NCBI RefSeq assembly: GCF_900111745.1
Contig: NZ_FOIJ01000004.1
Location: forward strand, 248,001-312,000
Direction of reading: 5' to 3'
Source: Stigmatella erecta
Lineage (GTDB): Bacteria > Myxococcota > Myxococcia > Myxococcales > Myxococcaceae
DNA: 64,000 nucleotides
Shown: positions 40,323-45,600 of the stretch, in pieces
Layout of the letters: every line of letters starts with the position of its first letter
How positions within the stretch are numbered: the first letter of the stretch is position 1
Notes under the pieces: model-generated
What the model was told of the DNA's origin: nothing
What the model saw: the letters and a program-made list of their open reading frames with translations, nothing else
The model's database searches: none
Position numbers and translations under genes: made by a program

Positions 40323-43300
40323 CTACCGGCGCCCGTCGGAGTCCAGCCACAGGTCCTCGAAGCGCACCTGGGGCGGCGTCATGTGCAGCCGCAGCCCCTG
40401 CACCGGGGCGCTCGCCACCGCGTAGATGCGGTCGTGGTACAGGGGGATGAGCGGGCAGTCCTGGTCGAAGAGGGCCTCGGCGCGCAGGTAGAGCTGGTGG
40501 CGCAGGTCCGGATCAATGGACACCCGGGCCTCGGACGTCAGCCGGTCCAGCGCCGGGTTGTGGTAGCCCAGCGGGTAGATGTTCTGGGCGTTCGAGTTCA
40601 GCAGGAAGTAGAGGAAGTTGTCCGGGTCCGGGTAGTCGGCGATCCACAGCGTGCGGAAGGCGGGGATGCGCCCGGCGCGCAGCCGGGCGGTGTAGTCCTG
40701 CGAGGGCAGCTCCACGTGGCGCAGCTCCAGGAGCCCCGCCTCGACGAGCGGCCGGAACAGCACCGCGTCCTCCTCGGAGGTGTCCCGGCCCGCGGGGTAG
40801 TAGAGCGTCAGCGGCACCGTGCGCACGCCGGCCTCGCGCAGCAGCGCCCCGGCCCGCTCCACGTCCGGGGCGGGCAGGGGGCCCGGCTCCAGCCCCTGGA
40901 GCAGCTCCGGGGGCGTGAGCGTCCGGGCGATGCGCGCCCCCGGGTGGAACTGCTCCACCAGGGTGGGGATGTCCAGCCCCGCGCGGATGGCCCGGCGCAC
41001 GCGCATGTCGTCATAGAGCGACTCGCGCAGGTTGAGGCCCACGAACGCGGTGGAGGGCGTGGAGCTGGCCACCGTCTGGAGCTCCTCGATGCCGGGAGAC
41101 TGGGCCTGCTGCGCGTAGAGAAAGGAGACGAACTGCACCTGGCCGTCCTGGAGCCGCTCGAGCGCCTCCTGCCGCGACTCCAGCAGCTGGAACTCGAGCC
41201 GGTCCACCCACGGCATGCCGGGGCGGAAGTAGGTGGGGTTGCGCTCCATGTGGATGTGGTCCGCCTCGAACTGCTCCAGGCGGTAGGGCCCCGTGCCGTG
41301 GAGCTTTCCTTCCGAGTCCAGCCGGGCCACCGCCGTGGGCGTCAGCGCCAGCAGGTGGAGGAAGAAGGCCTTGGGCTCCGTCAGGCGGATCTCCAGCGTC
41401 CCCTCGTTGAGCACGCGCAGGCCGTTCACGTCGCGCGTGGTGCCCGCGGTGAAGGCCTGGGCCCCCTCGATGTCCTCCAGGAGCGAGCGGTCCGGCGAGC
41501 GCACCATGGGGTCCAGCAGCCGCTCGAAGTGGCGCTTCACGTCGTACGCCGTCAGCGCCGTGCCGTCATGGAAGGAGACGCCCCGGCGCAGGGAGAAGCG
41601 GAAGATGCGCGCCGAGGCATCCATGTCCCACCGCTCGGCCAGGTCCGGCACGAGCACGCCGTCCTCCAGCCGCAGCAGGTTGGAGAAGACGCACGCGCAC
41701 AGCTCCGCCAGCTGGTTCTCCACGGCGAAGAGCGGATCCAACGTCAGGCGGGCGCGCAGGGCGGCGGCCTGGTGGATGCCCACGCGCAGCGTGCCCCCGG
41801 CGCGCGGCTGGGGCAGGCGGAAGCGGAACACCTCGGACTCCAGGCTCACCGTCTCGTGGCCGAGCTGGTCCACCGTGCGGCTCAGCTCGTCGCCGCTGCG
41901 GATGACCCGCCGCGCATCCTCCCGGACGCGGCTCACCTCGTCCCGGATGGACACCTCCCCCCGGGTGAGCACCGCGTGCGCCTTGCGGATGCTGTCGATG
42001 GCGGCGGTCAGCCGCACCACCGCCTCGGACAGCATGTTGCCGGCGCGCGCCTGGCCCTCCACCTTCTCCGAGGCATCGCGCGCCAGGCGCGCCATCTCCC
42101 CCGTCTTGCGCACCAGCTCCCGCGCCTGCCCCGCGTGCTCGATGGCGGCCCGGGTGACGTCGTCCACCCGCGAGGCCACGCGCTGGCTGGCGGCAATCAC
42201 CGTGGAGCCCTGCTGCTCCAGGCGCCGGGTCTCCTCCACCGTGGACTCCACCGCCGTGAAGGTGCGCTGGGTGATGGTGCGGATCTCCACCAGCGCGGTG
42301 GCCGCCCGGTCGCCGAGCTGGGCGCCCTCGGTGGCCAGCTCCCGGCCCTCCTTCACGAGCGCCACCGCGGTGTCCACCTCGCCGCGCACGCCCGTCACCA
42401 GGGAGGAGATTTCGCGCGTGGAGCGCGCGGAGCGCTCGGCGAGCCCCCGGATTTCGTTGGCCACCACGCCGAAGGGCCGGCCGTACTCGCCCGACTGGGC
42501 GGCGATGATGGCGGCGTTGAGCGCCAGGAGGTTCGTCTGGTCGGCGATCTCCTGGATGACATCCACGATGCGGCCAATCTCCCGCGAGCGCGTGCCCAGC
42601 GAGTCGACGATTTCGGCGGCCCGGCGCACCGTCTCCTTCACCCGGTACATGCCCTTGACGCTGTCGTTGACCAGCTCCTCGCCGCGCTGGGCGGTGGCGG
42701 TGACGGCCTGCGCCAGCGCGTTCGTCTCGTTGGCGCGGCGGCGCACCGCCTCGATGCCCGCGCCCACCACGGACACGAAGCGCTCGGCCTCATTGGCGAA
42801 CAGCGCCAGCTCGTCCCCCGCGGCGGCGATGTTGTCCAGCCGCTCGCTCATCACCTGCACCAGCTCGCTGGTGTGGTGGGCGAACTCATCCAGGCTGGTG
42901 AGCGCGAAGCCCACCTGCTGCAGCCGCTCGGTCATCTCCACCAGCGCGTTGGTGGTGTCGTGGGCGAAGGTGTCCATCTGCGCCACGCGCTGGCCGGCGC
43001 CCTGGAGGCTCTCGCCCATATGGGACACCGCCTCCAGCGAGTGGTCCACCGCCTGGCCCTGGCGCCGCGCGGCCTCCAGCAGCATCCGCACCTGCTCGGA
43101 GACGCTCGTGCTGGTGCGGTGCATGTTCGCCGTCACCCGCTGCACCTGGGAGATGGCGCGGCGCAGGGACGAGAGCAGGCGGCGCACATCCTCCCGGCCC
43201 TCGAACTCGGACGGGGTGGCGATGGCCAGGTCCCCCTCGGCCAGCTGGGTGATGACGCGCCGGCGCACCCGGCCCCGGTACCCCGCCCAGGTGAACCAGC

Positions 43301-43469
43301 TCAGCCACCCGCCCAAGAGGTAGAGCAGCGGCGTGGCGATGAGCAGCCACAGCCAGCCCCCCGTCCCCAGCTCCACGTTCGCCAGGGTGCGCAGCACCGT
43401 GCCAAGCAGGAGCGCGGAGACAAGCCCCCCGACAAGTCCGAAGCCGAAGAGGTACCGTTTGGCTCCCAT
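40323..43469 (-). CDS. Chemoreceptor (MCP) fused to a family-5 solute-binding domain
   Basis: 1048 residues. Two membrane helices (about 7-29 and 38-60) separated by only about 10 residues. A long MCP coiled-coil hairpin spans about 95-545, with its tip at 298-350: [20 protein letters not shown], then [20 protein letters not shown] and [19 protein letters not shown] complete SBP_bac_5 (oligopeptide-binding type) domain follows at about 567-1045: [50 protein letters not shown], ... [16 protein letters not shown]. With so short a periplasmic loop, both the MCP and the solute-binding domain should be cytoplasmic. The normal NAAIEAARAGE reads [11 protein letters not shown]. See findings. Confidence 0.93.
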
Positions 43470-44562
43470 GCGCGGAACCGACGCTAGCCTGCCTTGCCGC
43501 CCCGTTCCTCAAATCCTTGCGCGCCTGGGCGCCGGGCTGGGCCTCTTTTGCGCCCTGCTCCTGCCCCTACCTGCCACGTCCGCCCCTCCGAGGGGGGGAG
43601 GGTCCCCCGTGCCCCAGGAGGGGGAGGACGCCATGAGTTACCTCTTCGCCTGGCGCGGGGTGCCCGTGGGGCGGGTGACGCTGAGGCGGTCCGCGGGGCG
43701 CTTCACCTATGGGTCGCGCCACCTGCACACGCGCGCGGGCCAGGTGGGCGAGCGCCAGCGGGAGGTGACGCTGCGGCTGGACGCGCAAGGCCAGGTGGAG
43801 GGCTCGCGGAGCGTGCCCCAGGCGCTGTGGCTGTGGCGGGGGCCGCCGCGTCACGGGTGTGTCACGGGCCGCGAGGAGCTGACGGGCCGCGAAGGGCCGC
43901 ACTGCCTCACCGCCACGAACGGCCCCGAGGCGGAGGGCACGCTGCTGGGGGCCCCCTTCCGGGCGCGCTACGACGCGCGGGGGTGGCTCCAGGAGCTGGA
44001 GGTGGGCGAGTCCCGCTTCACGCGCGCGGCGCCCGGGGAGAAGCTGCGGCCTCCGCCGGAGCTGTTCGCGGACGGCGTCCCCGTGGAGGGGCGCGCGGGG
44101 GCGCTCGCCTTCGTGCCCGCGTGGCCGGTGCCCGCGCGGCTGCCCGCGATGACGGCGTGGGAGGCCGGCGCGGCGCGGGCCCTGTCGGCGCAGGTGCATG
44201 CGGCCTTTCCGGAGAAGGGGCCGGGGGCGGCGGACTGGCGCGAGGGGGGCGAGGGCGAGGCGGGCGGGTGCCTGGCCCACGCGCTGCGCTTCGCGGCGGA
44301 GGCCCGGGCGCGCGGGCACCACGTGGCGCTGGTGCACGGCCTGCTGGCGGTGGAGGGGGGCCCGGCGCGGCCGCACGCGTGGGTGCGCGTGGCCCTGGCC
44401 GGCGGGGAGCTCCTGGAGTTGGATCCCACCTCGCTGGACGCGGTGCGCCCGGAGACGCACCTGCCGCTGGCGCTGGTGGACCCCCAGGGCTCGCCGCGCG
44501 AGGCGGGCGAGCGGTGGCTGGAGCTGCTGCGGGGCACGCACCGGGTGGTGCGGCGGCCCTGA
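43468..44562 (+). CDS. Secreted transglutaminase-like protein
   Basis: 364 residues. A signal sequence ([20 protein letters not shown], after a basic lead) is followed by a beta-rich domain of about 190 residues and a C-terminal transglutaminase-like core. The Cys-His-Asp triad is visible as [20 protein letters not shown], then [10 protein letters not shown], then [12 protein letters not shown]. Such cores act as proteases or cross-linkers. ATG 43468 shares two bases with the start codon of the divergent chemoreceptor gene (CATG), leaving no room for a leader; a later non-ATG start before the hydrophobic segment is possible. Confidence 0.75.
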
Positions 44563-44574
44563 GCGCGCGGGCGG

Positions 44575-45600
44575 CTACTCGAAGGGGATGACGGACAGCT
44601 TGGCGCCGGCGGGCGCGCCGAGCACTTCCTTGGCCTTGGCGGGCAGGAAGATGAGCTGGTTGTCCAGGCGCGCCTGGGTGCGCACCGAGCGGAAGCGGTT
44701 GCGGCCGGACTCCCACTCGAAGCCGACGAGCACGTCATCGCCCTCCCGCTCGAAGTCCTCCGGGGCGAGCTTCACCGTGCGGAAGCGGCGCACGAGGGTG
44801 ACCTCCGAGACGTCGGCCTCGAAGTGGGGCCCGCCGTCGAACGGATCGATGCGCTCCACGTACCGGAAGCCGATGCGCTCCAGCATCCGCTGCACGCCGC
44901 GCGTCTGGGGGCCCACCTCGCCGAGCACCTTCTGCACGCGCGCGGGAAAGAGCGCCGCGTGGATGTCGGACGCGGGGAACAGCTCCTTGATGAACTCCTT
45001 GTTCTGGCGGCTGAGCCGGTCGGCGTCCTGATAGGACAGGCCGGTGAACTTCCGGCCGCACGCCTCCCACAACAGGCTGCGCCCGTCGGGCATCAGCGGC
45101 GGCAGCAGCTCGGCGAGCACGCGCGGGCGGAACAGGCGCCGGTGCATGGCGATGAAGAGGAAGCGCACGTAGGACAGCTGCTTGCCGGGCTTGTCCGGCG
45201 TGGCGCGGTAGGGCGGATCCACCACCAGGCCGCCAATCTCCGTGGGGCCCTCGTAGTTGTACGCGATGGAGAGCACCTTGTGCCGGATGTGCCGGTCGAT
45301 GGAGGCCGAGTAGTGCTCGCGCTCGCTCACCTCGTAATAGATGTGCGGCGCGTCGTACGTGCCGTGCTGCGCGATGACCATCGAGGTGCCGATGAGGGTG
45401 CCGTTGCGCGCATCCTCGAGCACGAAGAGGTACTCGCGCTCCAACGGGTTCTTCACCCTGCCGGCGAAGCTCTTCACCGACTTGTCGATGATGGCCGACA
45501 GCGTCTCCTCGTTGTTGGGGAGGTTGACGGTGTTGAGCACCGCGGCGAGGCGCTTGAGGCCAGGAAGATCGCTTTTCTGGACGTCGCGCAGGACAAGCAT
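44575..45600 (-). CDS. astA: Arginine N-succinyltransferase
   Basis: 341 residues. It transfers succinyl from succinyl-CoA to arginine, first step of the ammonia-producing AST pathway. AstA landmarks: MLVLRDVQKSDLPGLKRLA, LPNNEETLSAIIDKSVKSFA, EREYLFVLEDARNGTLIGTS, HIYYEVSEREHYSASI, LVVDPPYRATPDKPGKQLSY, ERIGFRYVERIDPFDGGPHF. GNAT-like fold, soluble. The other ast genes (astB-E) are not adjacent. ATG at 45600. Converges on the transglutaminase-like gene with 12 bp between stops. Confidence 0.94.
   Translation of the reverse strand: MLVLRDVQKSDLPGLKRLAAVLNTVNLPNNEETLSAIIDKSVKSFAGRVKNPLEREYLFVLEDARNGTLIGTSMVIAQHGTYDAPHIYYEVSEREHYSASIDRHIRHKVLSIAYNYEGPTEIGGLVVDPPYRATPDKPGKQLSYVRFLFIAMHRRLFRPRVLAELLPPLMPDGRSLLWEACGRKFTGLSYQDADRLSRQNKEFIKELFPASDIHAALFPARVQKVLGEVGPQTRGVQRMLERIGFRYVERIDPFDGGPHFEADVSEVTLVRRFRTVKLAPEDFEREGDDVLVGFEWESGRNRFRSVRTQARLDNQLIFLPAKAKEVLGAPAGAKLSVIPFE

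Follow-up and report, generated by a model that had tools for sequence, protein, structure and literature searches.

What does a chemoreceptor read with a solute-binding domain, a textbook outside-facing nutrient catcher, that is appended behind its signaling hairpin? The question is raised by a gene in the window, which is the whole 64,000-nucleotide stretch of Stigmatella erecta DNA analyzed here. The gene is a single frame of 1048 amino acids on the minus strand, running from the ATG at 43469 to a stop codon that ends at 40323. An earlier note had described one continuous frame of 1048 codons with two N-terminal hydrophobic helices, a methyl-accepting chemotaxis protein (MCP) hairpin and a complete SBP_bac_5 solute-binding protein (SBP) domain, and frame, Pfam and hydropathy analyses confirmed all of these. 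Length, domains, clade and neighbors agree in identifying the gene as the orthologue of McpK (MXAN_6456) of Myxococcus xanthus, whose AM003 copy (L098) has the same length of 1048 amino acids, the same domains and neighbors, and 67% identity to the window protein. The architecture is not new, as it has been in print since 2014, when Moine et al. gave McpK as an orphan receptor of 1048 amino acids with an MCP domain at 246-463 and a 'Bacterial extracellular solute-binding proteins domain' (PMC3945109). We found no functional study of McpK in the open-access literature, where the other McpK papers concern Pseudomonas aeruginosa. Added here are the junction at the McpJ end, a HAMP-like segment, the tip common to McpJ, the rejection of the DifA link, the co-occurrence with McpJ and a methylation motif that is not enriched. 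Judged by its sequence, the protein consists of a two-helix anchor, a degenerate HAMP-like segment, a McpJ-type hairpin and an appended OppA/DppA-like SBP domain, and we suggest that it is a membrane-anchored receptor which reads an intracellular peptide-like ligand through this C-terminal domain, a reading that we hold to be probable, if far from assured.

The fusion itself is no sequencing artefact. We searched 195 genomes of the phylum at E ≤ 1e-30 and 136 of them gave a match, many in the MCP part only. The match extended into the SBP part in 88 of the 96 genomes of the window's family (f1, probably Myxococcaceae), mostly at 50-97% identity and near full length, with fragments in G064, G067, G072, G147, and G154. 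The eight family genomes with no SBP-reaching match were G069, G106, G110, G142-G145, and G152, among which G143-G145 are genomes of 2-3 Mb. Outside the family the SBP part was reached in four genomes, namely G155 (f7, 47%), G057 (f6) and G163 (f10) at 36-37%, and G164 (f10, on two contigs). One stop was counted inside the aligned stretch in G071, G107, G149, and G151, and in G057 the stop counted is where the gene naturally terminates. Named genomes, a collection that overlaps with the phylum genomes, gave 53 loci on scanning, and a single frame spans the junction in 49 of these, which come from Myxococcus, Corallococcus, Pyxidicoccus, Archangium, Hyalangium, Citreicoccus, and uncultured relatives; the scan patterns were derived from the McpK family itself, and unrelated fusions of MCP and SBP_bac_5 could escape them. 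Two loci (L104 and L106, from Bosea and Mesorhizobium records) are plain solute-binding matches without a receptor match, whose sole use was to give the SBP model (A4) more depth, and L101 and L105 are end fragments. Among viral contigs, 16 stretches matched a pattern and none encodes a McpK relative. Alignment A3 contains the window protein and 32 of the 53 loci, after exclusion of 11 full-length, mostly close copies, eight truncated loci, L104, and L106; in the A2 set, Pfam detected both MCPsignal and SBP_bac_5 in all 20 members. That two separate genes have been fused by a sequencing error is a negligible possibility in view of the open frame in the window and the recurrence in both collections. 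The point in its favor is G116 (L053 10130-10160), where the mcpK frame is interrupted between hairpin and SBP domain. Compared with the window, this linker seems to have undergone a short deletion, and the broken frame may be a true split or an assembly error.

The earlier note had also predicted that the SBP domain is cytoplasmic and that sensing is internal, and our topology analysis agrees with it. In the window protein, the loop between the two transmembrane (TM) helices has seven residues, on which the hydropathy window scan and the AlphaFold2 (AF2) model agree, and the net charge is +2 before the first helix and +4 after the second. We scanned 36 sequences, namely the 33 in A3 plus three that lie outside the family. 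Their two most hydrophobic early windows are 0-15 residues apart, and the net charge after the second helix is positive except in five of them (0 in L072, L087, L097, L051, and L052). This hydropathy scan found no convincing membrane segment between the MCP and SBP parts in the 36 sequences, and beyond residue 85 the top hydrophobic 19-residue windows fall in the signaling helices or in the SBP domain. Sequence prediction likewise gave no export signal or convincing TM segment directly before the SBP domain in McpK. Since there are two helices with a short loop and positive charge after the second one, the MCP part must face CheA/CheW and no convincing later TM helix is seen, the SBP domain is predicted to be cytoplasmic, with the N- and C-termini and both parts inside the cell. 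With such a short loop, the only visible sensor module would therefore be internal.

The kinship of the hairpin was examined in a tree built on the MCP domains of 21 M. xanthus receptors, four receptors of the window's own genome and five distant McpK rows. The MCPs of M. xanthus AM003 were named by matching possible frame lengths to the published table, where some frames fit more than one length, and McpJ, McpK, Mcp5, and McpF/M, which had no length match, were named by relationship or elimination. All seven McpK rows formed one clade (100/100), sister to McpJ (94/85, on a branch that was not starred) within a group of McpJ, Mcp7, and McpK (96/93), and DifA and McpB fell outside this group. 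In constraint tests, McpK with DifA was rejected (approximately unbiased test, p-AU 0.0088) and McpK with Mcp7 was not (p-AU 0.119). The SBP domain starts behind EVFRFRL, which is reached 234 residues from the tip in all 33 aligned McpK orthologues, and 234 residues also separate the tip from the natural end of McpJ, with C-terminal EVRRFRV, in the own genome (L107/L154) and in M. xanthus; the corresponding length is 166 in DifA, 150 in Mcp4, and 437 in Mcp7. The N-terminal arms of McpK and McpJ differ by five residues (243 vs 248), and the alignment of McpK residues 75-552 with the own McpJ has gaps in the HAMP region only and scores 528, compared with 200 shuffles (mean 74.5, sd 13, max 125). 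The HAMP-like segment after the second TM helix, missed by Pfam, was detected by hhalign against the HAMP stretches of 11 M. xanthus MCPs and the own McpJ. McpK is thus a McpJ-like receptor with an SBP domain added exactly at the McpJ end.

The 2014 study had assigned McpK to DifA and the Dif system, as the two are alone in hairpin length class 44H and an interaction between them was suggested (PMC3945109). That McpK works with DifA in this way is fairly improbable in our view, since the tree puts McpK with McpJ and Mcp7, the C-terminal arm is that of McpJ and not that of DifA, and DifA has the tip NATIEAAR. We rejected DifA as the closest relative with the same hairpin length (p-AU 0.009, C-terminal arm of 234 vs 166).

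The earlier note had further pointed to a residue change in the tip, NAAIEAA to NAAIIAA, as one that may alter contact with the kinase or coupling protein. The change is present, the tip NAAIIAAQ standing where the commoner NAA(I/V)EAAR is found, and in an alignment with 20 MCPs of the own genome the conserved tip, together with MCPsignal, places McpK among the MCPs. The idea that it is peculiar to the window protein was rejected, because all 33 aligned orthologues have I321, I322, and Q325 and McpJ shares both exchanges (E to I and R to Q, giving IIAAQ). The change is thus an old feature of the McpJ/McpK pair. E and R at the corresponding tip positions are trimer contacts in Tsr of Escherichia coli. 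A GFP fusion of McpJ clusters in M. xanthus cells (PMC3945109).

What the appended domain may bind was approached through its fold. The AF2 model of residues 556-1048 had a predicted local distance difference test (pLDDT) score of 88.6 and a predicted template modeling (pTM) score of 0.84, and Pfam matched SBP_bac_5 at residues 606-961 (1.9e-59). A profile of this part gave 8upi as the best PDB match (1e-72), followed by OppA structures, and VIA-align of the model gave AgaA, GbpA, DppA, 8upi, MppA, and OppA with Z values from 34.1 to 32.7. The likeness to OppA, DppA, and MppA (8upi, 1b52, 1dpp, 3o9p) covers the whole fold (Z 32.7-33.5, 461-482 residues, 21-24% identity), while McpK differs from these proteins in having no export signal before the domain, in being fused to a receptor and in having no importer gene among its eight neighbors. 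In Foldseek, several ligand-bound forms gave template modeling (TM) scores of 0.79 (1b52, 1dpp, 3m8u) and the open forms 0.64 (1dpe) and 0.69-0.71 (4toz); the ranges overlap (unliganded 8azb 0.73, liganded 8ay0 0.70-0.75), and the closeness to ligand-bound forms may reflect prediction behavior only. NCBIfam matches, all under their curated cut-offs and thus signs of family resemblance only, likened the C-terminal half to peptide/nickel-binding transport proteins (NF007287 ahead of Opp4A and OppA) and the central part to chemoreceptors, and a third Pfam match, DUF948, was under its cut-off.

The SBP part of A3 has 93 invariant columns among 483 and a mean pairwise identity of 0.61, compared with 0.58 in the coil and 0.70 in the hairpin core, indicating that its sequence is as constrained as that of the coil. 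R939 (33 of 33), W942 (33 of 33) and D945 (32 of 33) align with R, W, and D of the OppA stretch ARAGWCAD, residues that contact the peptide in OppA. Because of the OppA/DppA fold and this conserved stretch, a peptide-like ligand is plausible. The earlier note had proposed an intracellular peptide or sugar-phosphate, and the peptide half of this proposal fits; the sugar-phosphate half is not supported, having no more than the SgrR analogy behind it, and the SgrR-type match is weak (NF010149, E 3.4e-6, residues 586-675 of McpK).

The SBP domain might instead have lost ligand binding and now serve for protein docking or spacing at the base of the hairpin next to the membrane, perhaps in contact with another receptor or an importer, with McpK sensing through partners or the membrane anchor. 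The lack of an ABC importer gene among the eight neighbors is in keeping with this, as are the sister receptor McpJ, which has no SBP domain, and the general knowledge that SBP surfaces are docking faces. We nevertheless consider it rather unlikely, since the whole two-lobed fold is retained, the stretch aligned with ARAGWCAD is near-invariant and the domain is conserved as much as the coil. Another possibility is that McpK reads transport flux, its SBP domain making contact with a peptidase complex in the cytoplasm or, from inside, with a peptide importer. The own genome has four SBP_bac_5 places, McpK included, so that such peptide import is limited and could be monitored, and the predicted membrane-proximal place of the domain would suit this role; on the other hand, no conserved permease link was seen among the neighbors inspected, permeases elsewhere in the genome not having been searched, and we regard the flux explanation as quite improbable.

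Features of the mcpK gene and its product in the window
Feature	Position	Strand	Evidence
mcpK orthologue, MCP signaling hairpin + SBP_bac_5	40323..43469	-	frame, Pfam, orthologues
TM helix 1, residues about 8-26	43392..43448	-	hydropathy scan; helix in AF2 model
TM helix 2, residues about 34-62, basic residues after	43284..43370	-	hydropathy scan; AF2 model
Degenerate HAMP-like segment, residues 66-116	43122..43274	-	hhalign probability 92.8
Long antiparallel coiled-coil hairpin, residues 93-552	41814..43193	-	low-confidence full-length model; gap-free alignment to McpJ
MCPsignal, residues 252-437	42159..42716	-	Pfam 6.1e-33
Hairpin tip, 11 residues, 318-328	42486..42518	-	common to McpJ
Junction EVFRFRLP, residues 546-553, where the McpJ-like receptor ends and the added domain starts	41811..41834	-	234 residues from tip, 33/33
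Complete OppA/DppA-type solute-binding domain, residues 558-1043	40341..41798	-	Pfam; PDB profile; AF2, Foldseek/VIA-align
R939..W942..D945, aligned to OppA ARAGWCAD stretch	40635..40655	-	profile alignment; conservation

For McpK as a receptor of an internal peptide-like ligand, we propose the following mechanism. Both termini would be cytoplasmic. In the hairpin, residue 552 comes to lie beside about residue 100, the end of the HAMP-like segment, and therefore the SBP domain would sit at the membrane-proximal end, inside the cell and just under the membrane, at the point where the C-terminal helix runs out against the HAMP-like segment. Closure of the domain on an intracellular peptide-like ligand would alter packing at the hairpin base and thereby the state of the tip, and the tip with its McpJ-type NAAIIAAQ would join McpJ in a receptor array and set the activity of a CheA kinase. 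Related systems are known. SBP_bac_5 serves as a cytoplasmic sensor in the SgrR/DsvR transcription factors, whose output is DNA binding and not kinase control (PMC13060122). In chemoreceptors whose ligand domain is C-terminal, CZB for example, the sensor likewise follows the hairpin and is a different domain; such receptors are a recognized, poorly characterized group with 17 C-terminal domain types, of which SBP_bac_5 may be one (PMC7390727). McpJ, in M. xanthus and in the own genome, shares with McpK the IIAAQ tip, a gap-free hairpin and the tip-to-end length, and differs in a longer part between its TM helices, in enriched methylation motifs and in lacking the SBP domain; the table in PMC3945109 gives it a HAMP domain and two TM helices. 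The pair is a natural comparison in receptor evolution, with matching hairpin length and an unusual tip, with and without a C-terminal sensor.

Adaptation was considered by counting methylation motifs, in loose and strict forms of a consensus, against shuffled hairpins. The window hairpin contains no copy of the loose motif (shuffled mean 1.3, P 0.28) and M. xanthus McpK a single one (shuffled 1.5), whereas M. xanthus McpJ is enriched in it (8, shuffled mean 2.1, P about 0.001). Among the 33 McpK orthologues, 16 have none, ten have one and seven have two to four, with a mean of 0.85, and all 20 other M. xanthus receptors have at least one loose match. McpK, not enriched in the motif unlike its sister McpJ, might therefore adapt poorly and report a level rather than a gradient, which is a weak inference.

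The partners of McpK were sought by counting McpJ and CheA7 in 189 genomes at E ≤ 1e-100, the same 189 being assumed for both. McpJ is wider than McpK, with 128 of 189 genomes. In the family it accompanies McpK in 83 of 85 genomes and is lacking in six of the eight without McpK (Fisher p 1e-6, the test ignoring kinship); the family genomes G072, G141, and G154 are in neither McpJ list, and G067 is fragmentary. CheA7 was found in 50 of 189 genomes; of the 85 McpK genomes of the family, 46 have it, a count which takes in family genomes not listed as without CheA7. The Che7 idea suggested itself because McpK is most closely related to McpJ and Mcp7, yet with CheA7 in only 46 of these 85 genomes Che7 is not a general partner, and we rejected it as an obligate one (CheA7 absent from 39 of 85). 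Che8 is a candidate for the partner kinase system. The own che8 cluster encodes a CheA along with two CheWs, has no MCP on its contig, and would therefore need orphan receptors; the receptor table in PMC3945109 gives no MCP for che8 in M. xanthus either. Between a CheR-length frame and the first CheW, the own cluster (L155, C7, 4022-6094) also encodes a 690-amino-acid HEAT-repeat protein.

A tie of McpK to development is put forward here as a hypothesis. At least 13 mcp deletions of M. xanthus impair fruiting, and in the available text mcpK is named neither among the S-motility mutants nor among the defect-free mutants (PMC3945109). Che7 is reported to be needed to couple aggregation and sporulation (PMC9040617). 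In its boldest form the proposal would make McpK a cytoplasm-facing, membrane-proximal peptide gauge, in which a captured importer binding protein closes on internal peptides and locks a poorly adapting receptor within a mixed McpJ/McpK array, so that a kinase whose gene cluster has no receptor, Che8 for example, monitors the nutrient pool inside the cell and links it to multicellular development; as a whole, this chain is speculative and unlikely. A conserved receptor with an SBP domain inside the cell, on an array-type hairpin, would make it possible to study directly how predatory myxobacteria gauge their nutrient state in the choice of feeding or fruiting.

Several observations weigh against McpK as an internal peptide receptor or against parts of that reading. 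Ligand binding by the SBP domain is a prediction only, and its placement rests on hairpin geometry, as the full-length AF2 model, with a pLDDT of 64, was used for helix order only. The hydropathy scan always picks the two best early windows and so cannot count helices, and in L051 these windows are adjacent. TMHMM gave three TM helices for M. xanthus McpK (PMC3945109), and with an odd number an N-in/C-in topology would not be possible. A hairpin stretch at 353-372 is fairly hydrophobic (Kyte-Doolittle up to 2.13 in L059 and 1.43 in M. xanthus) and is possibly the source of the published third helix. Taken at face value, three helices would place the C-terminal domain in the periplasm, where it would receive its ligand from outside as befits SBP_bac_5 proteins, which are normally extracytoplasmic. 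We judge this very improbable, since MCPsignal must be cytoplasmic, only about five residues lie between the end of the hairpin (552) and the SBP domain (558), and no convincing TM helix was seen between them in the 36 sequences. The McpK-GFP fusion is not among the ten clearly localized ones in PMC3945109, which has no bearing on topology. As for adaptation, 17 of 33 McpK orthologues carry at least one loose methylation match, the difference between 0 and the shuffled 1.3 in the window hairpin is not significant, and the strict motif is absent in 11 of the 20 other M. xanthus receptors, FrzCD and DifA included, for which reason loss of methylation sites was dropped as a solid finding. Finally, the McpK genomes that lack CheA7 include the single-contig G119, G128, G130, and G093, and deletion of McpJ was without phenotype in M. 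xanthus (PMC3945109).

The eight neighbors of mcpK that we inspected encode a YfiR-like protein, a protein with no Pfam match, a VTT-domain protein, a lipoprotein-like protein, a transglutaminase-like protein (just under the cut-off), AstA, a polysaccharide lyase and a radical SAM protein, and no chemosensory or importer gene is among them. The order VTT-domain, lipoprotein-like, mcpK, divergent transglutaminase-like, AstA is kept in 11 of 20 family loci, M. xanthus included, and is partly conserved in eight more. Two Archangium genomes have two mcpK matches each (L072/L090 and L071/L074), and the second copy of A. lansinium (L042/L090) keeps none of the neighbors. At the three loci outside the family, L050 keeps no neighbors, L051 the VTT protein only and L052 AstA only. 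AstA, the arginine succinyltransferase gene at 44575-45600 of the window, stays within about 7 kb of mcpK even after the gene order has been rearranged (L039, L045, L046, L047, and L052). One locus, 66% identical to the window, comes from a record titled Comamonas sp. KCTC 72670 (L069), which is probably mislabelled or contaminated. The mcpK start codon on the minus strand overlaps with the first signal-peptide-preserving ATG of the divergent transglutaminase-like gene on the plus strand (43468) in the sequence CATG at 43467-43470. Should both starts be correct, the two genes would each contain the promoter of the other.

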